Positions 845 to 63,660 of a stretch of DNA of 64,000 nucleotides are shown piece after piece; position 1 is the stretch's first letter, and each line of letters starts with the position of its first letter. The translations under genes and the position numbers were made by a program. The stretch is from Cordylochernes scorpioides. Its lineage: Eukaryota > Arthropoda > Arachnida > Pseudoscorpiones > Chernetidae. A model generated the notes under the pieces. The model did no database searches, had not been told where the DNA came from, and was given only the letters and a program-made list of their open reading frames with translations. The stretch lies in contig CP092880.1 of NCBI GenBank assembly GCA_030710605.1, positions 21,729,652 to 21,793,651 of the forward strand, in the 5' to 3' direction.

Positions 845-941
845 GATGTTGACCGTCTACCTTTAGTCTAAATCTGCTCTTTGAAGAGCAAGAGATCCAA
901 ACCACGCAGTTTTGTGTTTAATAAACAAACCTAATACGAAA

Positions 942-1080
942 AGTGAAGAAATAGTACAAATGTGAAATAGTACTGGGATAAGATGAATAACTTAAGAAAA
1001 TAGCATCGCCTTATCGTGTAACTGAAAGTTTCTGATGGCTTGTGCCATATCTAGGAATATATATCAACTATCGCTTCAAA
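942..1080 (-). repeat. H-family (hammerhead-linked) repeat, fragment without ribozyme
   Basis: Carries the family marker ccttatcgtgtaactgaaag and the gatggcttg(t/c)gccat block in the minus orientation. Same family as 19290-19505, where the ribozyme is intact. Only the part distal to the ribozyme is present here. Confidence 0.6.
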
Positions 1081-1267: not shown

Positions 1268-1450
1268 AATTTATTAGGTGCAGCTCAAAAAGAGCAACCT
1301 AGATCATCATATTAAAAAAAAAATCAACTATTCGTTGATTTTTCGAATAATTAAAAATCAACGTATACTTAATATTTACTCCAATATATAACGCAAGCCA
1401 TCAGCAACTTTAAGTTACACGAAAAGGAGATGCCTTTTTCTTAACTATTA
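1268..1450. repeat. SINE-B 3' fragment followed by an H-family fragment
   Basis: 1268-1312 repeats the SINE-B end (gagcaacctaga). 1313-1441 is an H-family piece in plus orientation (cgcaagccatcagcaac, then aaggagatgcctttttc). No ribozyme core is present. Confidence 0.5.
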
Positions 1451-5939: not shown

Positions 5940-7725
5940 TATACACTCATAGACAAAACTTAAGGGAGTACAAAGTGTTTAATGTTAACTGTGTCGTCTT
6001 CTTTTTTTCAAGGAGACAGAATCAATTTTGTTTACACTTGGTTATCTCGTGTGTCTTCAATAAAGATCACTGTAATATCTTTTAGATTTATTGTCTGTAT
6101 CCAGATACACATGCTGAAAGGTAAAACTTCCTTAGGTTTTGAAGGAGACAGAGACATAATTGTTCACACTCGTGTGTCTTCAATAAAGGTCACTGTAATA
6201 TCTTTCAGAGTTATTGTCTGAATCCTGATATACATGCTAAAAGGTACAACTTTCTTAAGTTTTGTCCATGAGTGTATACACACTTGGTTATATCTCGTAT
6301 GTCTTCAATAGAGGTCAATGTAATATCTTTCAGAGTTATTGTTTGTATCCAGATAAACATGCTGAAAGATACAACTCCCTTAAGTTTTGAAGGAGACAGA
6401 GACAAATTTGTTCACCATTGGCTATCTTGTGTGTCTTCAATATAAAGGTCACTGTAATATCTTTCAGAGTTATTGTCTGAATCCCGATATACATGCTAAA
6501 AGGTACAACTTCTTTAAATTTTGAAGGAGACAGAGGCAATTTTGTTCACAATAGTCTGTCTCCGATGAAGGTCAGTGTAAAATCTTTCAGAGTTATTGTC
6601 TCAATCCAGATATACTTGCTAAAAGGTACAACTTCCTTAAATGTTGTCCATGAGTGTATCTTTCAGAGTTATTGTCTGAATCCCGATATACATTCTAAAA
6701 GGTACAACTTCCTTAAGTTTTGTCCATGAGTGTATCTTTCAGAGTTATTGTCTGAATCCCGATATACATTCTAAAAGGTACAACTTCCTTAAGTTTTGTC
6801 CATGAGTGTATCTTTCAGAGTTATTGTCTGAATCCCGATATACATGCTAAAAGGTACAACTTCCTTAAGTTTTGTCCATGAGTGTATCTATCAGAGTTAT
6901 TGTCTGAATCCCGATATACATTCTAAAAGGTACAACTTCCTTAAGTTTTGTCCATGAGTTTATCTTTCAGAGTTATTGTCTGAATCCCGATATACATTCT
7001 AAAAGGTACAACTTCCTTAAGTTTTGTCCATGAGTGTATCTTTCAGAGTTATTGTCTGAATCCCGATATACATGCTAAAAGGTACAACTTCCTTAAGTTT
7101 TGTCCATGAGTGTATCTATCAGAGTTATTGTCTGAATCCCGATATACATTCTAAAAGGTACAACTTCCTTAAGTTTTGTCCATGAGTTTATCTTTCAGAG
7201 TTATTGTCTGAATCCCGATATACATGTTAAAAGGTATAACTTTCTTAGCGTCGTTATATCTTGCCAGTCGAAGGGCTTTTGCCCGAAAGCTCGCTCTTAT
7301 GCACCAATAAAGATACTCGTCTTCCTTCGCCTTGTTATTATCGTATAAGTTCATTCCAGGAAGAATTACTCTACTATTTTTCTTAAGTTTTGTTCATGAG
7401 GGTATCTTTCAGAGTTATTGTCTGAATCCCGATATACATGCTAATAGGTACAACTTCCTTGAGTTTGTCCATGAGTGTATCTTTCAGAGTTATTGTCTCA
7501 ATCCAGATATACATGCTAAAAGGTACAACTTCCTTACTTAAGTTTTGTCCATGAGTGTATCTTTCAGAGTTATTGTCTCAATCCAGATATACATGCTAAA
7601 AGGTACAACTTCCTTAAGTTTTGTCCATGAGTAAATATTTCAGAGTTATTGTCTCAATCCAGATATACATACTATAAGGTACAACTTACTTATTTAAGTT
7701 TAGTCCATTATTGTATATTTCTGGG
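5940..7725. repeat. MITE family A, with tandem 76-bp end repeats
   Basis: Begins with a family-A terminus (tacactcatagacaaaactt) and continues through several copies of the ~131-bp body. From ~6655 to 7225 and again from ~7400 to 7690 it becomes a 76-bp tandem made only of the terminal block (tctttcagagttattgtctg ... gttttgtccatgagtgta). The unit consists of one MITE end, so the array probably grew from an end rather than from the whole element. Confidence 0.8.
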
Positions 7726-12009: not shown

Positions 12010-12720
12010 CTCAACCGCTCTCATAGACATAGCTTGAGAAGTTGTACCTTTTAGCATGTATATCAGGATTCAGACAATAACTCTAAAAGATACACTCATG
12101 GACAAACTTAAGAAGGTTGTACCTTTTAGCATGTATATCAGGATTCAGACAATAACTCTGAAAGATACACTAATGGACAAACCTTAAGGATGTTTTACCT
12201 TTTACCTTGTATATCAGGATTCAGTCAATAACTCTGAAAGATACACTAATGGACAAACCTTAAGGAAGTTGTACCTTTTAGCATGTATATCGGGATTCAG
12301 ACAATAACTCTGAAAGATACACTAATGGGCAAACCTTAAGGAAGTTGTACCTTTTAGCATGTATATCAGGATTCAGACAATAACTCTGAAAGATACACAC
12401 ATGGACAAATATGAGAAGTTGTACCTTTTAGCATGTATATCAGGATTCAGACAATAAGTATGGAAGAATATGGTATACAGTGACCTTTTTTGATATTTAT
12501 TTTGTGTGTTAAATACACTTAAGGAAGTTGTACCTTTTACCATGTATATCGGGATTCAGACAATAACTCTGAAAGTTATTTGATACACAGTAACATATAT
12601 TGATATTTATTTTGTGTGAAATACACTCATGGACAAAACTTGAGGAAGTTGTATCTTTTACCATGTATACCGGGATTCAAATAATAACTCTGAAAGATAT
12701 TACTATTACTATTATTCCTA
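12010..12720. repeat. MITE family A, tandem end repeats
   Basis: About six ~75-bp units of the family-A end in the orientation opposite to 6655-7690 (ggacaaacttaagaaggttg ... cagacaataactctgaaag), then body-type units with cagtgaccttttttgat. Confidence 0.75.
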
Positions 12721-12854
12721 TATGTACTCTACATTTCTGCTTTGAGAATCTGTATAAGATGAAAAGATTTTAATAAACCTTTTGTTTTGTTGTATATTGA
12801 ATAGGGAAATAATGGTGAAACGGGTAGTTAAGGCCAGATTTGCGTGAGACCGCG

Positions 12855-12975
12855 ACACAAGATGAAAAAATAGTACAAATGTGATATTGTAGTGGGATAA
12901 GGTGCATAAATTATGAAAAAGGGATCTCCTTATCGTGCAACTGAAAGTTGCTGATGGCTTGCGCTTATAATAGTT
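12855..12975 (-). repeat. H-family fragment
   Basis: gatgaaaaaatagtacaaat, then ggatctccttatcgtgcaac and tgctgatggcttgcgc, as in the ribozyme-bearing copy at 55355-55625. Truncated before the ribozyme. Confidence 0.6.
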
Positions 12976-14651: not shown

Positions 14652-14759
14652 TCATCTAGTTCTATTATAGTATCAATAAATTAGGTCACAGGAAATACCT
14701 TTCATACTACCATCTTTTAAAAACTGATTATTTGAGGACTATGATTACAGAGTAGGTTA

Positions 14760-15060
14760 TTAAAAATAAAGAAGGCATCTCCTGACCACGAGCACATGCG
14801 CTTTCTAGATGGCAGAGCGCCATCTAGCGGAGCAAAAATAAACTAAACGTTTATTTAGCTTGCTCCGTGATATTTGGCCAACCCAATTTCTTAATAAATC
14901 AAGAAAAGCTATCCACGAACGCGTTTCGCGCTGTTGGTGCTCGTCAGCGTGGAGTAGGCTGTAACCACTGCGACCAAAAAGATTTTTGATCCCAGAGGCT
15001 TCTTGGGAAATCAAGAAATGGGTATTTAAAGCCAAATTTGCGTAAAGACGCTTAACACAC
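14760..15060 (-). mobile_element. H-family element, B-type, with hammerhead
   Basis: Order from left: atctcctgaccacgagcaca, an agatggcagagcgccatcta palindrome, gtggagcaaaa-like block, ttggccaacccaatttctt, then the minus-strand ribozyme at 14909-14962, then a ccaaaaagatttttgatccc block. B-type copies have a different distal half from H copies but share the hammerhead end. A fragment of the same type follows at 15105-15178. Confidence 0.7.
14909..14962 (-). ncRNA. Hammerhead ribozyme (type I, minimal stem III)
   Basis: Minus strand reads CCACG, CTGACGA (core CUGANGA), stem II GCAC-CAACA-GCGC, GAAAC, GCGTT, CGTGG. Stem I (CCACG/CGTGG) is perfect. Stem II has three pairs and one A-C mismatch. 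Stem III is only two pairs (AC/GT) with a two-nucleotide loop. Predicted cleavage is 3' of the T before CGTGG. Minimal stem III is known from hammerheads of Penelope-like elements and retrozymes, which often act as dimers. Activity is inferred, not shown. Confidence 0.75.
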
Positions 15061-15104
15061 GAAAATACAATAGAAAAAATAAATGTGGGTCAGGTGTTGA
15101 TATT

Positions 15105-15178
15105 AAAAATAAAGAAGGCATCTCCTGACCACGAGCACATGTGCTTTTTAAATGGCAGAGCGCCATCTAGTGGAGCTT
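15105..15178. repeat. B-type H-family fragment
   Basis: Repeats the first ~75 bp of 14760-15060 (atctcctgaccacgagcaca ... agagcgccatctagtgg). Confidence 0.65.
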
Positions 15179-18613: not shown

Positions 18614-19226
18614 TTGACTATCCCTAGTACACGTGATGCAGGCCATGATAATCAGTGTGGGTAGAAAAAGGCGACTGCTTTTCCTGTAAATGCAACTCCG
18701 CCTTTGTCGGTCCCAAGCCCGGATGAAAAAGGAGGAGGGGGAACAGTAACAAGCTCGGTAAAAAACCTGGGATCAGCTGACCCGGCTGATAGTACCCTGT
18801 AAGGGCTCCTAATCTAGGGATACAGGATGAGCATCGTTTGTACTCCATGTTAGGAGCGGCTTCACATGGTGTCTGTTCCTCATGTCAGAGGCGGCCATTT
18901 CTTTTGGAGCTAAGTCGGCCTGCCACTGAGTAGTGCTCCCAGTCTTAATGACAAAAGCAGATGCATTCTACTTCATCCAGTGTGGAGATAAGAAAGAAGA
19001 ATACTGTAAGTGCACTATTAGTCTACACATGTGAAAAGCAGTTCGACTTTTCACTTACAAATTTTCCAGAATACCGTTTGGTTACTTGCACTCGCTGGTG
19101 GGGTTGGACTTTTGTAAGAATCGGGGACCATTTGCATTTTTTTAAATAAAAAAAAGTGCCTAATGCGGGATTCGAACCCGGGTCATAGCAGTCGAAAACC
19201 AACGGTTTAGACCATCCTTCCACTAG
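18614..19226 (-). mobile_element. SINE family A split by an L5 insertion
   Basis: The SINE tail and body (18614-18694) and head (19004-19226, with the T-arm-like gggattcgaacccggg and aacggtttagaccatcc) are separated by 309 bp. The interrupted site is duplicated: ctgtaaatgca at 18684-18694 and ctgtaagtgca at 19004-19014, one mismatch. The SINE therefore predates the L5 insertion. Confidence 0.75.
18695..19003 (+). mobile_element. L5 retroposon insertion (309 bp)
   Basis: Starts actccgcctttg, includes cagctgacccggctgatagt and tactccatgttaggagcgg, and ends with a purine tail (aagaaagaaga). The same ~310-bp unit is inserted at 30617-30930 and 38325-38625. Two of the three copies start at almost the same base, which could mean a SINE-like unit rather than random 5' truncation. 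Confidence 0.75.
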
Positions 19227-19289
19227 CTTTCGAAAGCTAGAGAATTGTGAAATGAATATTTAAAAATTAAACATATCTCTGTTTTTTTT

Positions 19290-19505
19290 TTTTTGGTCGT
19301 TGAGGTACAGCTTGTACCACGCTGATGAGGGCCAACAGCCCGAAACGCGTACGTGGTTAGCTTTTCTTGATTAATCAAGAATGGGTATTTGGCCAATTCT
19401 GGAATAATTATAAATCAACGAGATTAGTTGATATTTATTCCGATAGATGGCGCAAGCCATCAGCAACTTCCAGTTGCACGATAAGGAGATGTCCTTTTCA
19501 TAAAA
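19290..19505 (+). mobile_element. H-family element with intact hammerhead
   Basis: Order: ggtcgttgaggtacagcttg, hammerhead (19309-19362), ttcttgattaatcaagaa palindrome, ttggccaattctggaataat, an atcaacgagattagttgat stem, gatagatggcgcaagccatc, agttgcacgataaggagatg. This is the clearest complete copy. There is no ORF. Other members lie at 942, 1313, 3060, 9850, 12855, 48350, 48540, 55355, 55745, 55902 and 56580, with related foldbacks at 54141 and 61381. Confidence 0.75.
19309..19362 (+). ncRNA. Hammerhead ribozyme (type I, minimal stem III), canonical core
   Basis: ACCACG (19316-19321), CTGATGA (19322-19328), stem II GGGC-CAACA-GCCC (19329-19341), GAAA (19342-19345), CGCGT, A51 (19351), CGTGGT (19352-19357). 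All conserved core bases are present. Stem I has six perfect pairs, then an internal loop, then AGC/GCT. Stem II has four pairs with the conserved G-C next to the core. Stem III is two pairs (A-U, C-G) around GC, and ACGCGT is palindromic, so dimer action is plausible. Predicted cleavage follows A19351 (GUA site). Cleavage itself is inferred. Confidence 0.88.
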
Positions 19506-20293: not shown

Positions 20294-21163
20294 TGTTAAA
20301 ACTATTTTTATAGATCCTTTTCTTTTGTACATAGAATGAAGATCTTAGGTGAAGGGAGACAACGAGCAAGATATCGACATGGTCGGGGAAGCCCCCGCTG
20401 AGACGAGGGGGCAAAGGTCAGCAGCGGGGACGCAGAATCACGTGGACACCCGCGATGTGATTGGTTGTTCTGAGAGCCCCGGGATGTGGTGTCAGTTGGC
20501 AGGATTCCCTTGTTAGAAGCGGAGGGGAAAGTTGAGTTCCCTTGCCAGACGGAGAGACGTCTAAAAGCTATCCTGCAAGCAGCGTCTTGTGGAAGGAAAG
20601 ACGTTAAGCTATCCTGCAAGCAGTGTCTTGTGGAGGGAAAGACGTCAAGCTATCCTGCAAGCAGCGTCTTGTGGAAGGAAAGACGTCAAGCTATCCTGCA
20701 AGCAGCGTCTTGTGGACGGAGAGAACGCATTGGAGTATCCCTCAAGCAGCAGCTTGAGAGCGGAAAAGACACTTAGACAACCAACGAGTCGCGACAATTG
20801 GACATCGCACAAGACAAGCCAAGCCAAGCCAAGCCTGCGACGGTGCTGCCACGAGGTACTGTGTAAACAAACGCTCGACACCCCCCGCCATTTATTTTTG
20901 TCTTCCCTTCCCTAAGACTACTTTAATTTTACTTTACTTTTTTTGCTTAACCTTTTTTATCTGGTTTTTTTAGCTCTGTTTTAATCTTTAAATACAACCA
21001 TAATTCTATATATATATAAGTGTAATAGTTTTTTTTATCCCTTTTGTTTTTAATTTTTAAAATAAATCCTTTTATTATACTGTGCAAGTGTGCATTTATT
21101 TCCCCCATTGTTTTTCCTTTCAGTCGATCACCATTTATTTATTTTTTTAAACGAACACGAACA
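20294..21163 (+). repeat. 5' LTR of the BEL element
   Basis: Contains four 41-bp direct repeats starting at 20567, 20608, 20649 and 20690 (gctatcctgcaagcagcgtc...), probably part of the regulatory or leader region. A (aagcc)n stretch follows near 20817. A tatatataag motif (near 21011-21018) and an aataaa (21061) near the 3' side are candidate TATA and polyadenylation signals, which is inference. Antisense and sense ORFs within the LTR arise from the 41-bp repeat and are not genes. Confidence 0.93.
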
Positions 21164-21181
21164 TTTTGGTGAGCCAGACGT
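21164..21181 (+). promoter_or_regulatory. Putative primer-binding site
   Basis: ttttggtgagccagacgt starts directly after the LTR terminus ACGAACA, where the tRNA primer site is expected. I could not assign the priming tRNA from memory. Confidence 0.5.
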
Positions 21182-21199
21182 GATCGATTTAAAGGAAAT

Positions 21200-24100
21200 A
21201 TGGAGGAAATGGATGCAATTAAAAAGCGCAGAAAAGCCATAAGAGGTACTTTCACTAGAATTATTAATGAAATAAATGGGGAATTTGAAAAGTCTCAAAT
21301 TGATAGGAATGATATTTATTCTAAGTTTAATAGACTAGAGTCTTATTACACGAAACTTGTAGTTCTAAACGAAAAATATCAGGCTTTATTGGTAGTGAAA
21401 GAAGGGATTACAGAGGAAAGTATTGATAAGGAATGCCAAGAATGCGATAAATATGAAGAGGAAAAGTTTGATATTCAACAGAAAGTCAGTGTATTACGGA
21501 ATCCCGATAAAGAAGAAACAATCCCGATTGCTAGCGAGGACACTGTAATAAATGTGAAATTACCAGAGTTAGCCCTAAAAAGCTATGATGGCTCTCTGGA
21601 AGGTTGGTTGCCTTGGTGGGCGCAGTTTTCGAAAATTCACGAAAATAAGAATTTATCCGATAGCGACCGGTTTTTATATTTGCGTCAAGCAATTGTACCA
21701 AATTCAGAAGCCTATCGTGTTGTAGCAAGCTATCCCGTTACAGGCGCCAACTATGCTTTGGCGGTACAAGCCCTACAGGAGCGATTCGGTGACCCGAATA
21801 TACTGACAGAACTATATGTCAGACGTCTATTGAATTCGGTTATATCTAATGTAAAGAAAGAAAATAGAAATTTAAGCAGTTTGTACGACGAACTGAGCAG
21901 TCACCTCCGGTCGTTAGAGACATTGGGCATTGATCCCCAGTTGTCGGGTATTTTTTTATACCCTCTTGTCGAGTCTTCATTACCTTCGGATATTTTGAAA
22001 ATATGGCACAGACATCCTTCTTCGGGTTATGGTCTGGAGTTAGCAAAACGGGAAGAGTCAGATAAAGGGGTTGGAGGAGCTCAAGAAAGGCTAAGGTTAT
22101 TATTGGACTTTCTAAAAGCCGAAGTAAGGAGTGCTCAACGGCTGAAATTTGTGGAAAAAGGCTTTAAGCAGGAGGAACCCTATAAAAGGTCTTACAATGA
22201 TGGGACCAGAACCAGGAGCAATTTCAGACCCGCCACTGTGTCTAGTCTGTTCGGAGGGCGAACTAATATAAAATGTTTCTTTTGTGAAAGAACAAATCAT
22301 GCGAGTCATCAATGCCGCTCCATAATGAAAATGTCTCCGGGAGAGAGAAATGATAAAATCCGTAGTGCCCATCTATGTTTCAAATGCTTAAGAAAGGGAC
22401 ACATACAGAGTCAGTGCCGAGAACAATTGGAGTGCAAAAACTGTGGGAGAAACCACTTGGAAGTTTTATGTGAAGGAAATTCTTCTAACCGGTTAACGAA
22501 ACCGGGAAGAGAGAATCTAAAAGAAAATGCACCTGAACCCATTGCATCGCTTTCTAGTCAAGCCTGCACAGGTCAGGTCTTGCTGATGACCACGGTAGCA
22601 CTGTTAAGAGGCCCAAATGCCTATAGAAGGGTTAGAATTCTCCTCGACAGTGGAAGTCAGTTTTCGTATATCAAACAGTCGTTAGTCTGGAGTATAGGAA
22701 TAGAAAGAAAAGGCGAAATAACTATAGCTAAAAGTCTTTTTGGAGGTAATAAGATTGGTGAAGAAAAGCACGGTAAATTTATGTTAGAATTAGAGAATTT
22801 AGGTAATAAAAGAGATGTGATCCATATTGAGGCGCTGGATCAACGTAAAATTTGCGACGCCATACCACCTTTGCCAAAAGGAGACTGGTTAGAAAAATTG
22901 AAGATTAAGGGCATAATATTGTCTCAGGACAATTTTAAAGGACAAGAGATTGACATATTGATTGGTGCTAACTATCTAGGTATGATTTTGACAGGAAAAA
23001 TAGTTCAAGTTGAAGCAGAATTAACTGCGGTGGAAACGAAATTAGGTTGGACACTAATGGGCAATTCGCCAATTATTGATAGCAATGACAATGTGCAGCA
23101 GACTTTGAATCTGCTAACAACGCGATGCGATTTAAAGGATTTGTGGGATCTAGAAGTACTAGGCATTAGGGATCCTGTTGAAACTTGCTCCAAAGAGACC
23201 AGATATCAGAAAATAAAAGAAAAGTTTATAACAAAAATTAAAAGACAAAGTGATCAGAGATATTCTGTAGGTCTACCTTGGAAGGTAGAAAAGGAGTCAA
23301 TCCCCAGCAATCTTGACATAGCGATAAAAAGGTTAGATATAAGCACTAAGAAAATGACCTCACAGAATAAGTTGACCGAATATAGTCAGATCTTTAGAGA
23401 CTGGCTGACAGAAGGACTCATTGAAAGAGTCGAGGAAAATCCTCTCGAGAGAAGAGGCTATTATTTACCTCACTGCCCTGTGTACAAGATGGAATCTAAA
23501 ACGACGCCCATACGTCCGGTTTTCGATGCTTCTTGTCTAGGCCATAATGGACTATCTTTGAATCAATGTTTAGAAAAGGGACCGAATTTATTGGAAATAA
23601 TCCCTGAAATGATGATAAGATTTCGGGAAAATAAATTTGGAGTCACGGCAGATATAAGAAAAGCATTCCAGATGGTGGCGATTGAAGAATCTGAACGGAA
23701 CTACCTTAGATTCCTTTGGTGGGAAAAGGAGAGCGATAGAAAACTAATAGCTTACAGGCATAAGAGACTTGTATTTGGCTTAAACTGTAGTCCTTTTGTG
23801 CTGAACGCCGTAATAGAATACCATCTTCAATCAATAAGGGGACCACTTGTTCAATGGGCAAAGATTTTAGCTCAATCCTTCTACATGGACAATTGTATTA
23901 CCTCGCTGGAAACAAAGCAGGAAGTGCAGGAATTTCAAAAGGCCGCAATTGGAATTATGGACAGGGCTAAAATGGACTTACGAGAGTGGGAATATTCTCT
24001 AGAGGAAAACCCTGAAAAGGGGACTTGTACAAAAATATTGGGTGTTGTCTGGAATAAAATGGAAGATTCATTAAAATGCGAACTCCCTGACATTTTGAGT

Positions 24101-26449
24101 CTTCAACCCAAATTAACGAAAAGGTTGGTACTGTCCATGGTTCAGCGGATATTTGATCCACTTGGATTTTGCGCTCCAGTATTCTTGCCACCAAAGTTGT
24201 TACTGCAGCGATCATGGGGACTGAAACTAGGTTGGGATACATCTCTACCCGAAAGTATGGCCCAGGAATTTCGAACCTGGTTGGATCAAATAAAATTCAT
24301 AGAGTTAATAAAGATACCGAGATATATGTGGAATGATCTCATTTTCCCTACAGAAGTTCATATCTTTTGTGACGCTAGTCAAATAGGCTATGGAGCTGTA
24401 GCCTATTTAAGGAGCGAAACGGGACGAGAAAATACTCTAACTTTGATTTGGAGCAAAGTCAGATTAGCTCCTATGAAGAGTATTACGATCCCTCGCTTGG
24501 AATTAATGGCCATGGTACTAGGAGCTAGACTAGCCAATGCAATCCAAGCTGCCTTGAAGAGAAAATGTGAAACAACTCTTTGGTCTGACTCTACTACCAC
24601 GCTAAGTTGGATAAAGAAAGAAATTGAGTGGAGAGTTTTCGTGAGAAACCGAGTCAGAGAAATACAGGCCACTACCAATTTGAACGATTGGAGGTTCGTT
24701 CCTAGTCAGTTGAACCCGGCCGATCTTCTGTCTCGAGGTTGCCCTCCAAGCCAGTTTGTGCAAAGCAGATGGTGGGAGGGCCCCGAATGGTTGAAAAAAC
24801 CTAAAGAATTCTGGCCCAATTCAGAGTTCTCGATAAATCCAAAAGAAATAAAGGTTGAAGAAAACATTATGAAAACCAACATTAATTTGAACATCGATTA
24901 TAAAGACTGGATACTGACAAGGAGGTCTAATTACTCTCTCAACATCAGGGTAATGTCCTATGTTTTAAGATTTTTAGGGAAACTTAAAAAACAGTCAACT
25001 GAAACAGGACCTTTGAAAGTTTCAGAATTAGACTTGGCAGAAAAAAAGCTTATCCGAATGATTCAGGAGAAAGGCTCTATAGAGAAATCGAATGCAACCA
25101 AGAGTTTTAAAATATTAAAAAACACTGACGGACTTTGGTGTGTAGAAAGCAAACTTTTACATGGACAGGTCCCAGAAGAATTTAAAACTCCTATCATTCT
25201 ACCAGGCGACCATCCCTTCGTAGAGCAACTTATATGGGAAGTGCACCTGAAGAATGGACATGTAGGGGTGCAATTCATTTTATCAAAGCTGAGAGAGAAA
25301 TTTTGGATAATCAGGGGAAGGAAAACGATAAAGAAAATTATCAGTAAGTGCATTGCTTGCAAGAGACTTAAAGAAAAGTCTCTGCAAAGACCAATGGCAG
25401 CTTTGCCAGAAAACAGAATTGGACTGGGCAAACCCTTCCAAATTACAGGAGTTGATTTATTAGGCCCTCTTCATTTGAAAGAAGGTGGGAAAGTGTGGGT
25501 AGCCGCCTTTACTTGCGCCGTCTATCGCGCTATTCATCTGGAGTTGGTGAAGAGTTTAGAGACAGGAGTCTTCATGATGGCCCTCCATAGGTTTATTTGT
25601 CGGAGAGGGCGCCCCGAGAAAATATATAGCGACAATGGCACCAATTTCGCAAAACTTAATAGAATATTCAAGAGATTGGATTGGACTAGAATTGAAAGGG
25701 AAACCTCAATTAAAAGGATACAATGGATTTTTATCCCTCCTTCCGCTCCTTGGTGGGGAGGATTTTGGGAAAGAATGGTTAGGACAATAAGGGAAATGTT
25801 GATAAAGATGCTAGGTCACAGGAAGCTGAAATATGTACAACTGCAGACTGCCCTTTGTGAAATCGAATCTATCATTAATAATCGACCCCTCACTTATGTC
25901 TCTGAAGACGACAATGATCTAAAACCGTTAACTCCTAATGAGTTTTTACAAAATGGTCCAGAGTCTAGCTTTCCTGAATTTGAAAATTTAAAGCCAGAAA
26001 TGTTGCACACTAGATACAGAGAGTTAGGTCAACTGAAGAGAGAATTGAAGCAGAGATTCTTAAAGGAATATTTAGGCGCGCTGATTCAGAAATCCGAAAA
26101 TATTGATAGAAGACAGTTGAAAGTAGGAGACGTTGTACTGATCGGGCAAGAAAATCTTAAAAGAATGTTTTGGCCTAAAGGGCGAATAGTAAATCTCATA
26201 CCAGGTAAAGATGGAATTGTGAGAGTGGCCCATGTTAAAACATCCACAGGAACCTTGATCAGGGCTCTACAACGCTTACACCCTCTTGAAATATCCTCGA
26301 ATGTTGAGACGATTCAAAAGGACAATTCAAATACCGAACCCCTATCTGAAGCATTTTTAGGAAATAGGCCCAATATTGAATCCAGGGACTCTAGAAATAG
26401 ATATGGTAGGGTAATCAGAAAGCCTGCAAGGTATGACTCGAAGGACTAG
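21200..26449 (+). CDS. gag-pol: BEL/Pao Gag-Pol polyprotein
   Basis: A single intact 1749-residue ORF, with gag and pol in one frame as is usual for this superfamily. N-terminal coiled-coil-rich gag (DUF1759-like; KLPELALKSYDGSLEGWLPW near 114). Three zinc knuckles: CFFCERTNHASHQC (from 359), CFKCLRKGHIQSQC and CKNCGRNHLEVLC (to ~425). Aspartic protease with LLDSGSQ (D~483). Reverse transcriptase with TADIRKAF (D818) and FYMDN (895-898). RNase H with FCDAS (D1058), PRLELMAM (E1101) and WSDST (D1130). Integrase with an HHCC finger (H1349 ... C1384, C1387) and the D,D,E core GVDLLGP (D1419), YSDNGTNF (D1478) and WGGFWERM (E1524). A C-terminal DUF5641-type domain (LKVGDVVLIG ... LQRLHPLE). The second Asp of the YxDD box is Asn. 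ATG 21200 lies 36 bases after the LTR. Possibly still mobile. Confidence 0.95.
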   Translation: MEEMDAIKKRRKAIRGTFTRIINEINGEFEKSQIDRNDIYSKFNRLESYYTKLVVLNEKYQALLVVKEGITEESIDKECQECDKYEEEKFDIQQKVSVLRNPDKEETIPIASEDTVINVKLPELALKSYDGSLEGWLPWWAQFSKIHENKNLSDSDRFLYLRQAIVPNSEAYRVVASYPVTGANYALAVQALQERFGDPNILTELYVRRLLNSVISNVKKENRNLSSLYDELSSHLRSLETLGIDPQLSGIFLYPLVESSLPSDILKIWHRHPSSGYGLELAKREESDKGVGGAQERLRLLLDFLKAEVRSAQRLKFVEKGFKQEEPYKRSYNDGTRTRSNFRPATVSSLFGGRTNIKCFFCERTNHASHQCRSIMKMSPGERNDKIRSAHLCFKCLRKGHIQSQCREQLECKNCGRNHLEVLCEGNSSNRLTKPGRENLKENAPEPIASLSSQACTGQVLLMTTVALLRGPNAYRRVRILLDSGSQFSYIKQSLVWSIGIERKGEITIAKSLFGGNKIGEEKHGKFMLELENLGNKRDVIHIEALDQRKICDAIPPLPKGDWLEKLKIKGIILSQDNFKGQEIDILIGANYLGMILTGKIVQVEAELTAVETKLGWTLMGNSPIIDSNDNVQQTLNLLTTRCDLKDLWDLEVLGIRDPVETCSKETRYQKIKEKFITKIKRQSDQRYSVGLPWKVEKESIPSNLDIAIKRLDISTKKMTSQNKLTEYSQIFRDWLTEGLIERVEENPLERRGYYLPHCPVYKMESKTTPIRPVFDASCLGHNGLSLNQCLEKGPNLLEIIPEMMIRFRENKFGVTADIRKAFQMVAIEESERNYLRFLWWEKESDRKLIAYRHKRLVFGLNCSPFVLNAVIEYHLQSIRGPLVQWAKILAQSFYMDNCITSLETKQEVQEFQKAAIGIMDRAKMDLREWEYSLEENPEKGTCTKILGVVWNKMEDSLKCELPDILSLQPKLTKRLVLSMVQRIFDPLGFCAPVFLPPKLLLQRSWGLKLGWDTSLPESMAQEFRTWLDQIKFIELIKIPRYMWNDLIFPTEVHIFCDASQIGYGAVAYLRSETGRENTLTLIWSKVRLAPMKSITIPRLELMAMVLGARLANAIQAALKRKCETTLWSDSTTTLSWIKKEIEWRVFVRNRVREIQATTNLNDWRFVPSQLNPADLLSRGCPPSQFVQSRWWEGPEWLKKPKEFWPNSEFSINPKEIKVEENIMKTNINLNIDYKDWILTRRSNYSLNIRVMSYVLRFLGKLKKQSTETGPLKVSELDLAEKKLIRMIQEKGSIEKSNATKSFKILKNTDGLWCVESKLLHGQVPEEFKTPIILPGDHPFVEQLIWEVHLKNGHVGVQFILSKLREKFWIIRGRKTIKKIISKCIACKRLKEKSLQRPMAALPENRIGLGKPFQITGVDLLGPLHLKEGGKVWVAAFTCAVYRAIHLELVKSLETGVFMMALHRFICRRGRPEKIYSDNGTNFAKLNRIFKRLDWTRIERETSIKRIQWIFIPPSAPWWGGFWERMVRTIREMLIKMLGHRKLKYVQLQTALCEIESIINNRPLTYVSEDDNDLKPLTPNEFLQNGPESSFPEFENLKPEMLHTRYRELGQLKRELKQRFLKEYLGALIQKSENIDRRQLKVGDVVLIGQENLKRMFWPKGRIVNLIPGKDGIVRVAHVKTSTGTLIRALQRLHPLEISSNVETIQKDNSNTEPLSEAFLGNRPNIESRDSRNRYGRVIRKPARYDSKD

Positions 26450-26611: not shown

Positions 26612-27478
26612 TGTTAAAACTATTTTATAGATCCTTTTCTTTTGTACATAGAATGAAGATCTTAGGTGAAGGGAGACAACGAGCAAGATATCGACATGGT
26701 CGGGGAAGCCCCCGCTGAGACGAGGGGGCAAAGGTCAGCAGCGGGGACGCAGAATCACGTGGACACCCGCGATGTGATTGGTTGTTCTGAGAGCCCCGGG
26801 ATGTGGTGTCAGTTGGCAGGATTCCCTTGTTAGAAGCGGAGGGGAAAGTTGAGTTCCCTTGCCAGACGGAGAGACGTCTAAAAGCTATCCTGCAAGCAGC
26901 GTCTTGTGGAAGGAAAGACGTCAAGCTATCCTGCAAGCAGTGTCTTGTGGAGGGAAAGACGTCAAGCTATCCTGCAAGCAGCGTCTTGTGGAAGGAAAGA
27001 CGTCAAGCTATCCTGCAAGCAGCGTCTTGTGGACGGAGAGAACGCATTGGAATATCCCTCAAGCAGCAGCTTGAGAGCGGAAAAGACACTTAGACAACCA
27101 ACGAGTCGCGACAATTGGACATCGCACAAGACAAGCCAAGCCAAGCCAAGCCCGCGACGGTGCTGCCACGAGGTACTGTGTAAACAAACGCTCGACACCC
27201 CCCCGCCATTTATTTTTGTCTTCCCTTCCCTAAGACTACTTTAATTTTACTTTACTTTTTTTGCTTAACCTTTTTTATCTGGTTTTTTTAGCTCTGTTTT
27301 AATCTTTAAATACAACCATAATCCTATATATATAAGTGTAATAGTTTTTTTATCCCTTTTGTTTTTAATTTTTAAAATAAATCCTTTTATTATACTGTGC
27401 AAGTGTGCATTTATTTCCCCCATTGTTTTTCCTTTCAGTCGATCACCATTTATTTATTTTTTTAAACGAACACGAACA
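26612..27478 (+). repeat. 3' LTR of the BEL element
   Basis: Nearly identical to 20294-21163, including the 41-bp repeats at 26884, 26925, 26966 and 27007. Differences by eye: one T fewer near 26626, c for t near 26922, a for g near 27052, c for t near 27153, c for t near 27323, and small homopolymer or TA-repeat length changes. Confidence 0.93.
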
Positions 27479-30605: not shown

Positions 30606-30941
30606 ACGAAAAACATAACTCCGCCTTTGCCGATCCCAAGCCTGAATGAAAAAAGGAGGAGAGGGAGCAGTAACAAGGTCACTAAAAAAACCTGGGCTCA
30701 GCTGGCCCGGCTGATAGTACCCTGTAAGGGCTCCTAATCCAGGGATACAGGATGAGCAGCGTTTGTACTCCATGTTAGGAGCGGCTGCACATGGAGTCTG
30801 TTCCTCATGTCAGAGGCGGTCATTTCTTTTGGAGCTAAGTCGGCCTGCCACTGAGTAGTGCTCCCAGTCTTAATGAAAAAGGCAGACGCATACTACTTCA
30901 CCCAGTGTGGAAATAAGAAAGAAGAAGAAGACGAAAAACAT
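30606..30941 (+). mobile_element. L5 retroposon insertion with 11-bp TSD
   Basis: Insert 30617-30930 (314 bp) flanked by acgaaaaacat at 30606-30616 and 30931-30941, perfect. Ends in agaaagaagaagaag. Matches 18695-19003 along its length. Confidence 0.88.
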
Positions 30942-33295: not shown

Positions 33296-33524
33296 TGAAG
33301 AAACTAAAGCACTCTAGTTCAATAGAACTCAGCTGTATTCTACGATTATTTGTATACAGACGAATAGCTTCACGTTTCATGTATATTTGTGATAAATTCA
33401 ATTTACCCTAGATAATTAAAGAGTTCAAATAAAATAATTAGTGAATTAAATAACTTGGAATTGTTTGGTGTCACTATTTATACACATGCCCGCGGGTGAA
33501 TCGTTATATGAAAAGAAAAACATA

Positions 33525-34095
33525 TACACTCATGGACAAAACTTAAGGAAGTTTTGTACCTTTAACCATGTATATCGGGATTCAGACATTAACTCTGAAA
33601 GATACACTCATGGACAAATTTTAAGGTAGTTGTACCTTTTAGCATGTATATCGGGATTCAGATAATAACTCTGAAAGATACACTCATGGACAAATTTTAA
33701 GTTAGTTGTACCTTTTAGCATGTATATCGGGATTCAGACAATAACTCTGAAAGATACACTCATGGACAAAACTTAAGGAAGTTATACCTTTTAGCATGTA
33801 TATCGGGATTCAGACAATAACTGTAATTTGATATACAGTGGCCTTTATTGAATATACACGAGATAATCAGGCGTGAACAAAATTGCCTCTGTTTCCTTTA
33901 AAACTTAAGGAAGTTGTACCTTTTAGCATGTATATCGGGATTCAGACACTTATTCTGAAAGATATTACAGTGACCTTTATTGGAAACACACGAGATAATC
34001 AGGTGTGAACAAAATTGCTTCTGTCTCCTTCAAAGCAACAGATGAGCGACATCAAATACTTTCCATTTTATTGAGCTTTGTCCATGAGGTTTTCC
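33525..34095. repeat. MITE family A, tandem end repeats plus body
   Basis: Four ~76-bp end units (acactcatggacaaaactta ... cagacaataactctgaaag) followed by two body units and a right end (attgagctttgtccatgagg). Confidence 0.75.
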
Positions 34096-34289
34096 GAAAT
34101 TTGAAAAAGTAGTGTGGTGGCAAATATCTGGTAGTTTTAAGGGATGATTGGAAGACAGCACATACCTCTGACCTCTCTTAACATAAAAATGCCGCTGGAA
34201 TCAAGGCCAAGCCCCCTACAAGGTCCCGTAGTGAATTAAAGCTGAAACCTTTCATTTTGTCTCTTTCCTTGTTTTTACTGTTGACGAGC

Positions 34290-34785
34290 AATTACACTCA
34301 TGCGCAAAATTTAAAGAAGTGGAAAGTTTTGAAGTCGCCCTTCGTCTTTTTTATTTGAAAGTAAACAGAGGCAATTTTGTTCACACTTGGTTATCTCGTC
34401 TGTCTTCAATAAAGGTCACTAATATCTTTCAGAGTTATTGTCTGAATCCCGATATACATGCTAAAAGGTATGACTCTAAGTTTTTTCCATGAGTATATCT
34501 TTCAGAGTTATTGTCTCAATCCCGATATACATGCTAAAGGGTATAACTTTAAGTTTTTTCCATGAGTGTATCTTTCAGAGTTATTGTCTCAATCCCGATA
34601 TACATGGTAAAAGGTACAACTTCCTTAAGTTTTGTCCATGAGTGTATCTTTCAGAGTTATGCATATACATGCTGAAAGGTACAACTACCTTGAGTTTTAT
34701 CCATGAGTGTATCTTTCAGAGTTATTGTGTGAATCCCGATATACATGCTGAAAGGTATAGCTTATTAAAGTTTATCAATGAATAA
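34290..34785. repeat. MITE family A, body plus tandem right ends
   Basis: Left terminus ttacactcatgcgcaaaatt, one body, then five copies of the 76-bp right-end unit. This is the clearest case where one element has one left end and many right ends. Confidence 0.75.
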
Positions 34786-36343: not shown

Positions 36344-36852
36344 CTAGACGAATGGCCCGGGCAACGCCCGGGTTTTACCCGAGTGCGTATATATTTTAAA
36401 AACGTTTTAATTCAAATACTATTCGTTACAATTATAAATTGGCGCCATGGATGTCACTCTTGTGAAACGTCCCGTTCCAAACTGTGTGTTTTTAAAATGT
36501 TTTAATTAAAATACTATTCGTTACAATTATAAATTGGCGCCGTGGATGTCTCTCTTGTGAAACGTCCCGCCCCAAACTGTGTGTGTCTTGAAAATATAAA
36601 AATGTGAATTTTCATAAAGATTTCATCATGTCGATTTTTTTTTGCATTTCACCTACTAAATTAACTTTATGAACGGAAAAATATGTCCAGGGTAGCCTAG
36701 TGGTCATGACATCTGCCCGGTAAGCGGAAGGTCGTGGGTTAGATTCCCATCCCTTGACACTTTTTTTATTTTATCCATTCTGACCAAAATCTATCCGTGA
36801 ACTTCACACAGTGAACTTCACACAGACAGAATAAGGCAATTATATAAGTAGA
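36344..36852 (-). mobile_element. Non-autonomous Helitron, 509 bp
   Basis: On the minus strand it starts TCTACTTATATAATTGCC (5' TC) and ends with a GC-rich hairpin cccgggcgttgcccggg, 7-8 nt, then CTAG. The flanks are A before TC and T after CTAG, the AT target expected for Helitrons. The interior holds two 95-bp direct repeats (36405-36499 and 36500-36590), and a tRNA-like stretch. No Rep/helicase ORF, so mobilisation would need a partner. Confidence 0.8.
36686..36758 (+). tRNA. tRNA-Thr(GGT)-like sequence inside the Helitron (probable pseudogene or SINE head)
   Basis: Acceptor arms gtccagg/ccttgac pair 6 of 7. The anticodon stem tctgc/gcgga encloses ccggtaa, which would put GGT in the anticodon position. 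The T arm gtggg-ttagatt-cccat pairs. The D arm does not fold well, position 33 is C rather than T, and TTAGATT replaces TTCGATT. A functional tRNA is unlikely. An A box (tagcctagtgg) and B box (gggttagattcc) are present. A T run follows. Confidence 0.5.
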
Positions 36853-36859: not shown

Positions 36860-37290
36860 TGTATCATTGTGAAAACAATTTGAATAAAATATTATAAATT
36901 TTGAGAAGATATATATGAATATAGTTTATATATATATATATAGTAAAAAAAATTGTGAGTCAATTTTGTTCACCATTATAAAAATAATTTCAAATTTGTG
37001 TTTATAACGTTCCAGATATCTCTATTTAGTTACTTGTACTTGATGGCGGGTTTGTACTTGTTCAAGAGAATCAAGGATCATTGATGAAAGTATTCCATTA
37101 AGGTGCTCAATGCATACATCTCTCTCGGTTCTCGTTGCACCATTTGGCCTCCACAACGCTTGTGTAAACGTATAGGATTTTGTAAACACTTATTGAAATA
37201 AATAATTAATGTTTTTAATTAATTCCGTTTAAGAGCAATTATCATTTGAAAACTAGTATTTTAAAATAAAAATAAACTAATTTTCCTTTG
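36860..37290. other. AT-rich, nothing recognised
   Basis: (ta)n near 36930; otherwise no supported feature. Confidence 0.4.
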
Positions 37291-37296
37291 CTTATC

Positions 37297-37589
37297 CCTA
37301 GTACACGTGATACAGGCCATAATAATCTTGGTGGGTAGAAGTAGGCGACTGCTTTTATTGTAAGTGCACCACATGTCTACACATGTGAAAAGTAGTTTGA
37401 CTTTGCACTTACAAATTTGCCATAGCCCCGTTTAGTTACTTGCTTCCGCTGGTGGGATTGGACTTTTGCAAGAATCGGTGGCTATTGGAGCATTTTTTTT
37501 TTTTTAATCAGAAAAAAGTACCCAATGCGGGAATCGAACCCGGGTCGTAGCGGTCGAAAAACAACGGTTTAGACCATTCTTCCACTGAA
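37297..37589 (-). mobile_element. SINE family A, near-complete copy
   Basis: Minus-strand head with the T-arm-like ggttcgattcccgc and the aacggtttagaccattc block, full body, and tail at the left (tatccctagtacacgtgata). Followed directly on the head side by a 25-C run. Confidence 0.75.
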
Positions 37590-47000: not shown

Positions 47001-47505
47001 TACCTGACGTGTTAACTGTAGCGCTCACATCATGGCATGTGTATATTATACCTGACGTGTTAACTGTAGCGCTCACATCATGGCATGTGTATATTATACC
47101 TGACGTGTTAACTGTAGCGCTCACATCATGGCATGTGTATATTATACCTGACGTGTTAACTGTAGCGCTCACATCATGGCGTGGTTGATACATGGCATGT
47201 GTAGATTATACCTGACGTGTTAACTGTAGCGCTCACATCATGGCGTGTATAGATTATACCTGACGTGTTAACTGTAGCGCTCACATCATTGCATGTGTAG
47301 ATTATACCTGACGTGTTAACTGTAGCGGGTAAATCATGGCGTGGTTGATACATGGCATGTGTAGATTATACCTGACGTGTTAACTGTAGCGGGCACATCA
47401 TGGCGTGGTTGATACATGACATGTGTAGATTATACCTGATATGTTATAACTGTAGCGGGCACATCATGGCGTGGTTGATACATGGCATGTGTAGATTATA
47501 CCTGA
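44058..47505. repeat. 48-bp satellite array (~70 units)
   Basis: Unit tgacgtgttaactgtagcgc, tcacatcatggcatgtgtag, attatacc = 48 bp. Period 48 is 16 codons, so one minus frame reads the peptide CHDVSATVNTSGIIYT over and over (e.g. 347 codons at 44102-45145). A 16-bp insert (gtggttgatacatggc) recurs at about 44110, 45134, 45390, 45886, 46526, 46830 and 47182, at spacings of n x 48 + 16, and shifts the frame. After 47300 the units decay (gcgggcacatcatggcgtgg). Differences between units are not concentrated at silent sites. Read as satellite, not as a gene. Confidence 0.9.
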
Positions 47506-54140: not shown

Positions 54141-54427
54141 ATCAAAAAAGGCATATCCTGACCAGGAGTACACGAGCTTTTTAGATGGCAGAGCGCCATC
54201 TAGTGGAACAGAAATCAACTAAACATTGATTTAACCTGTTCCCTGATATTTGGCCAACCTATTTTCTTAATTAATCAAGAGAAGCCAACCACGAATATCA
54301 AGAAAATGGGTTGGCCAAATATCAGGGAACAGGTTAAATCAACGTTTAGTTGATTTCTGTTCCACAAGATGGCGCTCTGCTATCTGAAAAACGCATGTGC
54401 TCATGGTCAGGATATTCCTTTTTGATT
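54141..54427. mobile_element. Foldback built from two inverted H-family B-type halves
   Basis: Arms of ~135 bp: gcatatcctgaccaggagta, ggcagagcgccatctagtgg, aacagaaatcaactaaacat, ttggccaacctattttctta and the inverse. The ribozyme that normally follows is missing at the centre (only accacgaatatcaag). Confidence 0.75.
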
Positions 54428-54469
54428 TTAATAGTTGTGTATATGTATCTAATTATTTAAAGCTAATAG

Positions 54470-55354: not shown

Positions 55355-55625
55355 GTGAAAAAAATAGTACAAATGTGATATTGTACTGGGATAAGGTTCA
55401 TAAATTATGAAAAAGGCATCTCCTTATCGTGCAACTGAAAGTTGCTGATGGCTTGCGCCATCTATCGGAATAAATATCAACTATTCTCGTTGATTTTTAA
55501 TTATTCCAGAATTGGCCAAATACCCATTCTTGATTAATCAAGAAAAGCTAACCACGAACACGTTTCGGGCTGTTGGCCCTCATCAGCGTGGTGCAAGCTC
55601 TACCTTAGCTCCAAGCTGCCTTTTT
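55355..55625 (-). mobile_element. H-family element with intact hammerhead
   Basis: Complete minus copy: gtgaaaaaaatagtacaaat end, aaggcatctccttatcgtgc, gatggcttgcgccatctatc, ttggccaaatacccattc, attaatcaagaaaagc, then the ribozyme and a gcaagctctaccttagctcc end. Confidence 0.75.
55544..55598 (-). ncRNA. Hammerhead ribozyme (type I, minimal stem III)
   Basis: Minus strand: CACCACG, CTGATGA, GGGC-CAACA-GCCC, GAAAC, GTGTT, CGTGGT. All core bases are present; stem I and II are perfect. Stem III has two pairs (AC/GT) with loop GT. Predicted cleavage is after the second T of GTT (allowed H). The ACGTGT segment is less palindromic than the ACGCGT at 19345. Confidence 0.82.
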
Positions 55626-55679: not shown

Positions 55680-55900
55680 AATACTCTCTAGCCGCTAAGC
55701 ACGTGATCTACGTTCTCTCCTTAAATCATGAAATGCGTAGTGTCATTGACTGATCGTGAAACTAAAGGTTACTGATGGCTTGCGCCATCTATCGGAATAA
55801 ATATCAACTATTCTTTGAATAAATAATCACCCTTTTGGTCTAAATACCTGTTTCCTGATTTTTAAAGTCCCCCCCCCCCAAAAAAAAGAGCTTTTTTTAG
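55680..55900. repeat. 88-bp unit fragment, H-family fragment (-), poly-C
   Basis: 55680-55740 is one 88-bp unit (gccgctaagcacgtgatcta). 55745-55860 is an H-family fragment in minus orientation (gatggcttgcgccatctatc). A C run follows at 55870. Confidence 0.5.
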
Positions 55901-55901
55901 T

Positions 55902-56037
55902 CGTTGAGGTACAGCTTGTACCACGCTGATGAGGACCAACAGCCCAGAAACGCGTACCTCATTAGCTTTTCTTGATTATTCAAGAAAAAGTATTTGGCTA
56001 ATTCTGTTTTAATTAAAAATTAACGATTAAAAACATT
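55902..56037 (+). repeat. H-family copy with decayed hammerhead
   Basis: gttgaggtacagcttgtacc, CTGATGA at 55926-55932, ggaccaacagccca, GAAAC at 55947-55951, cgcgtacctcat. An extra A before GAAA and loss of stem I (CCTCAT for CGTGGT) predict no activity. Confidence 0.65.
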
Positions 56038-61060: not shown

Positions 61061-61380
61061 AGGTCTTCGTAGATGAAGATTTTATTGTACCTCATCTCTC
61101 ACTAACCATTTAGTGTCAATTTTGAAGTCTCAATAAAGATCGTTTTTGTCTTAAGTCTTGTCTAAGAATGCTGAGTCTTATTAGAAGCTCAACACGGATA
61201 ACTCTCCGATATTCATGAAGAAGCTTCTGTTTCTAATTTCTTCGATGTTAAGGGAATATTGATTGAAAGGGCGACACACACACAACACCTTTCCCTTGAT
61301 AATTTATACTTTTTTTCAATCTCATCAATATTCTCTTTTTGTTATGTTTACAAATTGGTTCTTTATCATAGTATATAAAG
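61061..61380. other. No recognised feature
   Basis: No supported gene or repeat. Confidence 0.35.
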
Positions 61381-61630
61381 AAAAAGGGCATTTTCTGAGC
61401 GTGAAATTGAAAGTTGCTGATGGTTTTCGCCATCTTTCGGAATAAATTCCAACTAATGGTTGATTTTTAATTATTCCAGAATTGGTTCAATACCCTTTCT
61501 TGATTAATCAAGAAACAGTATTTAACCATTTATGGAATAATTAAAAATCAACGATTAGTTGATTTTTATTCCGATAGATGGCGCAAGCCATCAGCAAATT
61601 TTAATTGCATGATCAGGAAAAGCCCTTTTT
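61381..61630. mobile_element. Foldback built from two inverted H-family halves
   Basis: Arms gaaagttgctgatggttttc, attattccagaattgg and the inverse (ttggaataatta-type, agatggcgcaagccatcagc). Centre ttcttgattaatcaagaa. No ribozyme present. Confidence 0.75.
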
Positions 61631-61639
61631 TCTCGATTT

Positions 61640-62200
61640 ATCCATCTTATCCAAATATAAATTCATTTTTGTACTATTTTTCACAAAGTATATGAGTTGA
61701 TTTGTTTGATAAGGCAATTTTGACTTCAGTGTCTGCTTCATCATTTTCTTGTATTGACAAAAGTTACTTTGTACGGCTTTACACACAAACAAACAAAATT
61801 CTAGGACCTAAATTAAAAGTAACTTAACACAGAGAAAACACTCAGAAACCCAACAAAATATAAAAACGAAGGACACAAATAAAACCATTCGATTAGTTTT
61901 AACAAAACCAGTACTTATCTTTTATAGCAGCGATGATAATGAGCGGACCGGGGTTACACAGGTATGTGAGGAGATCCCCAGACACGGACACAGAATGCTT
62001 TAAGCATCTCCACACAATCCCTCCAGGAGAGTCCACGCATTCTCTTTGCACCCTCTTATATACAAACATGGCCACATTTGTCCATTGAGAAGACGTGGGA
62101 GATCAGTTCACTTAACAAACAAACAACGTTCTTCCCACAAAACACAGAGAAGTTTAAAACTGCGTTTGTTTGTCAAAATAATTTGACAGTATACATGAAT
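61640..62200. other. No recognised feature
   Basis: Adjacent unique sequence; no supported gene. Confidence 0.35.
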
Positions 62201-62999: not shown

Positions 63000-63660
63000 T
63001 TGGATGGAAGTGGTACTTCTAGAATTCCCGTTGAAGGGCATATTGGCCTGAAGCCTTGAGAAATAAAGAGTGGAACAGAAATCAAATAAACGTTGATTTC
63101 ACCTGTTCCCTGATATTTTGCCAACCCATTATCTTGATAAATCAAGAAAATCCAACCATTTTGCATAGGGAAGTAGTACTTCTAGATCTCTTGTTGAAGA
63201 CAAATTGGCCCGAAACCTTGAGAAATAGAGAGTGGAACAGAAATCAATTAAACATTAATTCAGCCTGTTTCCTGATATTTGGTCAACCTATTTTCTTGAT
63301 AAATCAAGAAAATCCAACCATTTTGCATAGAGAAGTAGTACTTCTAGATCTCTTGTTGAAGGACATATTGCCCGAAACCTTGAGAAATAGAGAGTGGAAC
63401 AGAAATCAACTAAACGTTGATTTAGCCTGTTCCTTGATATTTGGCCAACCCATTATCTTTATAAATCAAGAAAATCCAACCATTTTGCATAGGGAAGTAG
63501 TACTTCTAGATCTCTTGTTGAAGGGCATATTGGCCTGAAACCTTGAAAATAGAGAGTGGAACAGAATTCAACTAAACGTTGATTTAGTCTGTTCCCTGAT
63601 ATTTGGCCAACCCAATTTCTTGATAAACCAAGAAGAGTCAACCACGTTGTATAGGGAAAT
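63000..63660. repeat. 162-bp tandem array (four units), B-type H-family derived
   Basis: aatagagagtggaacagaa recurs at 63062, 63224, 63386 and 63548 (162 bp = 54 codons), which keeps a 160-codon plus ORF open (63056-63538). The unit is the B-type H-family half (gtggaacagaaatcaactaa, ttggccaacccattatcttg, aaatcaagaaaatccaacca). The ribozyme place holds an unrelated segment. Confidence 0.8.

Follow-up and report, generated by a model that had tools for sequence, protein, structure and literature searches.

A hammerhead-bearing 339-bp repeat of Cordylochernes scorpioides with insertion marks of the Penelope-like type

The genome of the pseudoscorpion Cordylochernes scorpioides harbors an abundant 339-bp repeat with a type I hammerhead ribozyme, which is probably a retrozyme-like retroelement that is not autonomous and that Penelope-like elements (PLEs) mobilise in trans with their reverse transcriptase/endonuclease. 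Metazoan retrozymes, insects and crustaceans being among their hosts, consist of 150-450-bp units in tandem, from dimers to multimers, and combine type I hammerheads with a low GC content, target duplications of more than 4 bp and circular RNAs (Cervera & de la Pena 2020, PMC7229834). The same article names PLEs as a strong candidate for the retrozyme helper, because both kinds of element have type I hammerheads, both form tandem copies and the two co-exist (PMC7229834). The anatomy of the insertion sites, in a genome that contains about 17,000 exact cores of subfamilies A and B together, provides an independent line of evidence on what moves animal retrozymes. Its PLE-type character turns the suggested helper into a testable claim, and the repeat is a family in which this helper can be sought by its tail. 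In addition, the head-to-head pairs described below bear on a debated point in how PLEs integrate, namely whether they rely on double-ended priming or on self-priming. The window is the whole 64-kb stretch that was analysed (C18:21729652-21793651), and the genome searched comprises 2.62 Gb in 24 contigs.

The hammerhead at positions 19309-19362 is real. Its complete conserved type I core, claimed by the original prediction, can be read directly from the sequence and recurs as an exact 35-mer throughout the genome. Its parts, all on the plus strand, are the following.

19309..19362, plus strand: type I hammerhead ribozyme, H17 = A19351 (sequence; also in the 24-copy alignment and the pair counts)
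19309-19312 with 19359-19362: outer pairing AGCT/AGCT (AGCU in RNA), beyond stem I and a small internal loop
19316-19321 with 19352-19357: stem I, six pairs, ACCACG/CGTGGT
19322-19328: CTGATGA
19329-19332 with 19338-19341: stem II, four pairs, GGGC/GCCC
19342-19345: GAAA
19345-19350: palindrome ACGCGU (ACGCGT in DNA), inside which the weak stem III forms two pairs
19364..19381, plus strand: perfect 18-base palindrome TTCTTGATTAATCAAGAA, directly 3' of stem I

Cleavage is expected between 19351 and 19352. The label "canonical" given to this ribozyme was too strong, as stem III has two pairs only and the Rfam models remain below threshold. No Rfam hammerhead family reached its gathering score in the 64-kb window; at E<=5 the sole family to appear was Hammerhead_HH9, which matched two of the three intact copies with 24.3 and 22.1 bits (gathering score 52), whereas 19309-19362 itself had no Rfam hammerhead match even at this level. 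The absence of an Infernal hit, named beforehand as a sign against the ribozyme, is therefore literally what was found at Rfam gathering scores. Another such sign, a random placement of the core among genome copies, is contradicted by the 35-mer counts and the alignment of 24 copies. Short third helices have a precedent in salamander hammerheads, in which helix III has one or two pairs and a palindromic loop, and dimers cleave better (PMC7229834). The loose pattern CTGANGA..GAAA gave 13 matches in the window versus 4.5 expected, a number reached by 0 of 100 shuffles; nine of the 13 lie outside the hammerhead repeat family, five of them in a single tandem array, and the genome-wide count of exact cores is the stronger test.

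The exact 35-base core with C at position 17 was found in 8,819 places of the genome (4,472 + 4,347), and with A or T at this position in 748 (373 + 375), T being present in 11 of the 100 A/T17 places listed. G was the rarest base at position 17, with 23 places (13 + 10), and G17 is the one base that the hammerhead does not cleave. Mutation bias may explain part of this rarity, since C-to-G is a transversion. The exact core of subfamily B occurs in 7,610 places (3,766 + 3,844), and the reversed-pattern control was 0 for every exact-core search. The common lineages carry C, A and, in subfamily B, T at position 17.

The core alignment includes 24 copies, 23 of them distinct, after leaving out two sequences without a regular core, one head-truncated copy and the loci L001, L028 and L029 (see below). 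The 16 hammerhead pairs are formed in 91.8% of its cells, and the covariation score is 0.089 versus 0.045 +/- 0.010 in shuffles, none of 500 reaching the observed value. The number of pairs with two-sided changes is less telling: there are three, a number reached in 84 of 500 shuffles, and sliding the structure by -1 yields four. Subfamily B shows compensatory changes from A-U to U-A in stem I and from G-C to C-G in stem II, either of them in 3 of the 23 distinct sequences, and these reflect the single split between A and B. The consensus sequences of the two subfamilies keep the hammerhead core and differ in much of the remainder.

The host repeat, originally taken to be ~200-270 bp long, proved to be a unit of 339 bp (q1-q339) that occurs in tandem, as derived from the alignment of the 30 best copies; its predicted cleavage site lies between q187 and q188. 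Numbering of subfamily B begins at window position 15080 by choice, with the B 3' end, q323, at 14758. Subfamilies A and B cover 3,050 of the 64,000 window bases, including the following copies.

19288..19503, plus strand: subfamily A copy, q124-q339, shortened on the 5' side at a T tract, no 3' tail (BLAST with the 339-bp unit, 96% identity)
14758..15176, minus strand: subfamily B partial tandem, made of fragment 15101-15176, tail-like linker 15081-15100 and unit 14758-15080
14905-14963, minus strand: hammerhead core in this B unit, stem II GCAC/GCGC, one mismatch
55405..55605, minus strand: subfamily A copy, q139-q339, intact hammerhead core at 55544-55602, 98% identity
55353..55404, minus strand: ~50-nt 3' tail (q1-q51) of the copy at 55405..55605
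55892..56026, plus strand: subfamily A copy in which the hammerhead has decayed, with an additional A preceding GAAA and a disrupted stem I
54144..54433: two subfamily B copies joined head-to-head, 54144-54295 on the minus and 54296-54433 on the plus strand
61378..61685: head-to-head pair of A arms with the palindrome as their common centre, minus arm 61378-61515, plus arm 61496-61629, tail 61637-61685
12808..12964, minus strand: partial A copy, q286-q339 then q1-q103, unit junction read through
940..1071, minus strand: partial A copy, q260-q339 and tail q2-q52
1345..1444, plus strand: partial A copy ending at q339
63069..63646, minus strand: four B-like fragments starting at B q164-q166 (cleavage site q164)

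The two further copies said to keep the core were recovered, both on the minus strand (14905-14963 and 55544-55602), and so was the decayed one (55910-55968). Depending on the alignment, the left arm of the pair at 54144..54433 starts either exactly at the cleavage site or two bases earlier; the strongest Rfam microRNA match of the window, at 54181-54387, turned out to be this head-to-head pair itself. The fragments at 63069..63646 are spread through a 162-bp tandem array and were hence counted as one event.

The units are arranged head-to-tail with contiguous q339-to-q1 junctions. The first 100 exact A cores listed, which cover contig C1 up to 46.8 Mb, include three arrays of at least three cores with a spacing that is constant within each array (338x4, 339x2 and 347x2), reaching up to five exact cores at 338 bp. 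The GC content of the unit is 0.404. Across three tandem units the longest stop-to-stop stretch is 69 codons, in agreement with the early view of a repeat without an ORF; because the unit contains no ORF for a reverse transcriptase (RT) and GIY-YIG endonuclease, it is not itself an autonomous PLE. The predicted circular fold of the consensus unit has -113.6 kcal/mol versus -69.8 +/- 4.4 in 200 dinucleotide shuffles (z -9.9). Tandem 339-bp units, 40% GC, the lack of a long ORF, a self-paired predicted circle and target duplications all strengthen the earlier suggestion of a retrozyme-like non-autonomous element. Judged by the sequence features tested, the repeat is a member of the metazoan retrozymes, with an Rfam score short of the threshold.

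In 20 random 10-kb loci drawn from 15 contigs, subfamilies A and B cover 2,749 bases (1.4%) and are present in 8 of the 20. The A copies of at least 150 bp diverge from the unit by 3.3% on average and by 0.9% at least (44 copies; L001, which is the window, and L028 and L029, which resemble the L020 stretch, were left out). Units within one tandem insertion range from the 10th to the 44th percentile of likeness among unrelated copies (3 insertions). For the idea that each tandem insertion copies one circle, the evidence points both ways: its units are not clearly more alike, yet array spacings are constant.

The ends of the copies follow a distinct pattern. For subfamily A, 46 of 102 3' ends fall at q334-339, another 31 fall at q46-57 and 25 are scattered, so that 77 of the 102 belong to two sharp ends about 50 nt apart. 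The clustering at q334-339 and q46-57 therefore indicates two 3' ends, with a tail of ~50 nt that is optional. Among 20 rows of subfamily B, 12 have their end at q322-323, and five of these 12 then carry tail-like sequence like TCAACACCTGACCCAC (rows below 79% identity, those with A-type borders, and L001, L028 and L029 were excluded). Loci L001-L030 were picked by similarity to the window copy, and the counts of 3' ends and of direct repeats are thus not from a random sample. The 5' ends are spread over the whole unit (101 A-type ends), that is, 5' truncation is variable; L001, L028 and L029 were omitted from this count as well as from those of inverted pairs and arm likeness. A start of the copies at the ribozyme cut site was considered, as 7 of the 101 5' ends lie in q185-191 versus 2.1 expected (P 0.005 if all are independent). 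This result is weakened by the fact that three of the seven belong to one tandem array, which leaves five independent ends, and that three lie 3 nt outside the site. The 5' ends near the cut site are a hint, with no clear pile-up.

Neighbouring matches within 60 bp of each other are biased in orientation. In 48 sequences 23 were head-to-head, two tail-to-tail and 37 tandem, and the 20 random loci gave five head-to-head and no tail-to-tail neighbours. Exact cores within 1.5 kb of each other behaved alike, with 16 head-to-head versus one tail-to-tail (first 100 A and first 100 B places listed, contig C1). Direct repeats of at least 10 bp were detected between the flanks of 17 of 40 insertions versus 2.3% of mismatched flanks, ten of the 17 being 12 or 13 bp long; two 31-base flanks were compared, the repeat was free to lie off the insertion ends, and insertions below 90% mean identity or within 60 bases of the locus end were excluded, as were L001, L028 and L029. 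The flanks have 78% AT versus 65% in the sample. Among the head-to-head insertions tested, 11 of 19 had such a repeat, and eight were left once three in TA repeats (L020, L027 and L033) were removed; since direct repeats surround them, at least these pairs look like single insertions. The alternative that inverted pairs are chance neighbours is disfavoured by the orientation bias and the shared duplications.

At the head-to-head junctions the arms begin at different unit positions in 21 of 23 cases, and in 9 of 11 pairs the arms are no more alike than unrelated copies, L026 and L023 being the exceptions. Asymmetric junctions and unlike arms argue for priming from both DNA ends over snap-back. 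The combination of tails, head-to-head pairs, 5' truncation and duplications is new for retrozymes: the literature searched by title and abstract opening gave no account of retrozymes with PLE tails or with head-to-head insertions, and the words "inverted" and "tail" have 0 occurrences in the main text of PMC7229834.

In PLEs, by comparison, partial tandems, head-to-head inverted copies, an optional 31-bp tail and duplications of 8-10 bp are hallmarks (PMC3846280). For a purified PLE, reverse transcription was reported to begin at two adjacent internal sites, with both strands being extended (PMC11167929). Insertion by this in vitro system was unaffected in dead hammerhead mutants, so integration may proceed without the ribozyme; it is also reported for the PLE tested that no RNA-seq reads start or end at its hammerhead cut site (PMC11167929).

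The genome contains PLEs of its own. The GIY-YIG domain gave at least 146 matches (150 scored of 17,015 candidates), and among the matches listed all 11 neighbours within 20 kb are arranged minus-then-plus. The PLE at locus L046, whose RT (29.2 of 29.6 bits) and GIY-YIG (16.2 of 22.6 bits) domains are both under the Pfam cut-offs, has 524-bp inverted arms with 99% identity and a 9-bp repeat that touches the right end and is separated from the left arm by 29 nt, as would be the case if just one arm carried a tail; a repeat of at least 9 occurs in 1.7% of 300 random window pairs. This PLE has the same insertion layout as the hammerhead repeat, and in L036 there are two PLE frames that mirror each other. 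None of five GIY-YIG/PLE loci (L002, L036, L046, L051 and L052), of which L036, L046 and L052 include the 3' flank, had the tail or the ribozyme of the unit as a part of its own. L002, at one point taken as a PLE with an upstream ribozyme, is actually a subfamily B pair inserted into a PLE ORF.

Two side observations concern these loci. At L046:6806-8946 the PLE is flanked by inverted hammerhead-like motifs with the core CTGTCGA instead of CTGANGA, which are probably inactive. In L051 an open frame starts in the GIY-YIG match, and Pfam finds no family in the L051 piece; the frame presumably runs on into RT-like motifs, as in PLEs with permuted domains.

Other repeats and genes were recorded along with the hammerhead family. 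Twister-P1-like ribozymes lie at 18689-18743 (plus strand, 38.0 bits) and 30612-30667 (plus strand, 31.1 bits), with a gathering score of 67.2. A twister-like ribozyme stands at the start of a ~308-bp repeat (18694-19001), itself inside a tRNA-like repeat that is uninterrupted at 8327-8032 and 37287-37586 and whose two halves overlap by 13 bp, as target duplication would. Matches to the ~308-bp repeat start at the presumed cut site or one base away from it (window 30617 and L043), and the exact 32-base twister core occurs in 9,953 places genome-wide. A tRNA-Thr-like sequence at 36685-36760 (plus strand, 43.3 bits, ARAGORN anticodon ggt) is perhaps a tRNA-derived repeat, and a weak tmRNA-like match (B-box-like) was noted at 19164-19203 on the minus strand. 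Positions 21173-26449 (plus strand) hold an uninterrupted BEL/Pao-type frame of 1758 codons with the domains DUF1759, RVT_1, Peptidase_A17, Integrase_H2C2, rve (below cut-off) and DUF5641; it is flanked by arrays of one 41-bp unit (20565-20724 and 26882-27041), which are perhaps inside the LTRs of the element. Satellite blocks are present at 44119-47505 (48-bp unit, long open frames on the minus strand) and 48772-52142 (98-bp unit, 221-bp variants). Tandem units of 76 and 132 bp, which look related by eye, occur in both orientations at 1-765, 6034-7721, 12038-12457 and 33524-34759. Genome-wide, the cuticle domain PF00379 had at least 150 matches (150 scored of 333 candidates), many of them in clusters, which by itself marks the genome as very probably that of an arthropod.

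According to the proposed mechanism, transcripts spanning at least two 339-nt units would fold, and the weak stem III with its palindrome would let hammerheads pair as dimers, cut after H17 and release unit-length RNAs to be ligated into circles. The PLE protein would bind the unit RNA and cut AT-rich DNA on both strands. Reverse transcription by this putative enzyme would begin inside the RNA at either of two sites ~50 nt apart, corresponding to the two 3' ends observed, and would pass one or more units before stopping at varied places, which matches the observed tandems and 5' truncation. Often both DNA ends would be primed and the two cDNAs would join at their 5' ends, giving the structure that is observed, a head-to-head pair inside one target duplication. 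A broader proposal, favoured by a narrow measure, is that animal retrozymes are sequence parasites of PLEs, with reverse transcription starting at two internal sites of a hammerhead-made RNA and priming from both strands of one staggered break; the head-to-head pairs would be the fossil record of double-ended target-primed reverse transcription.

Of the other origins that could be given to the repeat, the one with most in its favour, though unlikely, is that the 339-bp unit is the pseudo-LTR (pLTR) of one unsampled autonomous PLE, most copies being solo or tandem pLTRs. Rotifer PLEs have pLTRs of 193-218 bp with palindromes and optional tails (PMC3846280), minimal type I hammerheads are borne by PLE pLTRs (PMC7761336), and every insertion hallmark fits, with three PLE 3' flanks examined. 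Against this stand the five cores at constant 338-bp spacing, which leave no room for an ORF, the PLE loci examined, which carry other sequences, and the existence of two subfamilies with at least 7,600 exact cores each. A variant that alters one step, and to which a rather low probability is assigned, forms the head-to-head pairs by self-priming (snap-back) instead of priming from both DNA ends. For rotifer PLEs, junction palindromes led to the proposal of self-priming (PMC3846280), and symmetric junctions at window 61378-61629 and L033 6664-6791, the palindromic PLE of L036 and the unusually similar arms of L026 and L023 would suit it; against it, different unit positions are joined at 21 of 23 junctions, and in 9 of 11 arm pairs the likeness does not exceed that of unrelated copies.

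It is very improbable that the repeat is SINE-like and owes its movement to the twin priming, in the style of L1, of a LINE (RTE or other). L1 twin priming inverts the inner piece of one RNA, whereas many pairs have their own 3' end or tail outside on both arms. Variable 5' ends and target duplications are LINE features too, and the other short repeat of the window has a 5' twister-like ribozyme, as stated for RTE elements in a work mentioned as in preparation (PMC7761336); on the other hand, a choice between two 3' ends, together with an optional tail, is a mark of PLEs (PMC11167929). Least credible of all is a fold-back or MITE-like DNA transposon with an incidental hammerhead match: inverted structures and AT-rich flanks speak for it, but 5' ends scattered over the unit, tandem read-through, compensatory stem changes and the few G17 copies are at odds with such an element.

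Under the preferred reading, a retrozyme-like repeat moved by a PLE, the family can be compared with the known systems closest to it. With PLEs that have pLTRs and minimal hammerheads it shares partial tandems, 5' truncation, head-to-head copies, an optional tail of ~30-50 nt, short target duplications and AT-rich targets (PMC3846280, PMC11167929, PMC7761336), and it differs from them in that the 339-bp unit is without an RT-endonuclease ORF. The metazoan non-LTR retrozymes, in the descriptions given, likewise have a type I hammerhead, tandem units of 150-450 bp, low GC content, target duplications of more than 4 bp and a strongly self-paired predicted circle, and are described as being without LTRs, a probable further likeness to the repeat; by contrast, the 339-bp repeat has a two-pair stem III, PLE-type tails and head-to-head double insertions (PMC7229834). 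From the newt satellite and the axolotl HHR_Amex1, as these are described, it is set apart by a host of another phylum and by its PLE-type insertion marks (PMC7229834).
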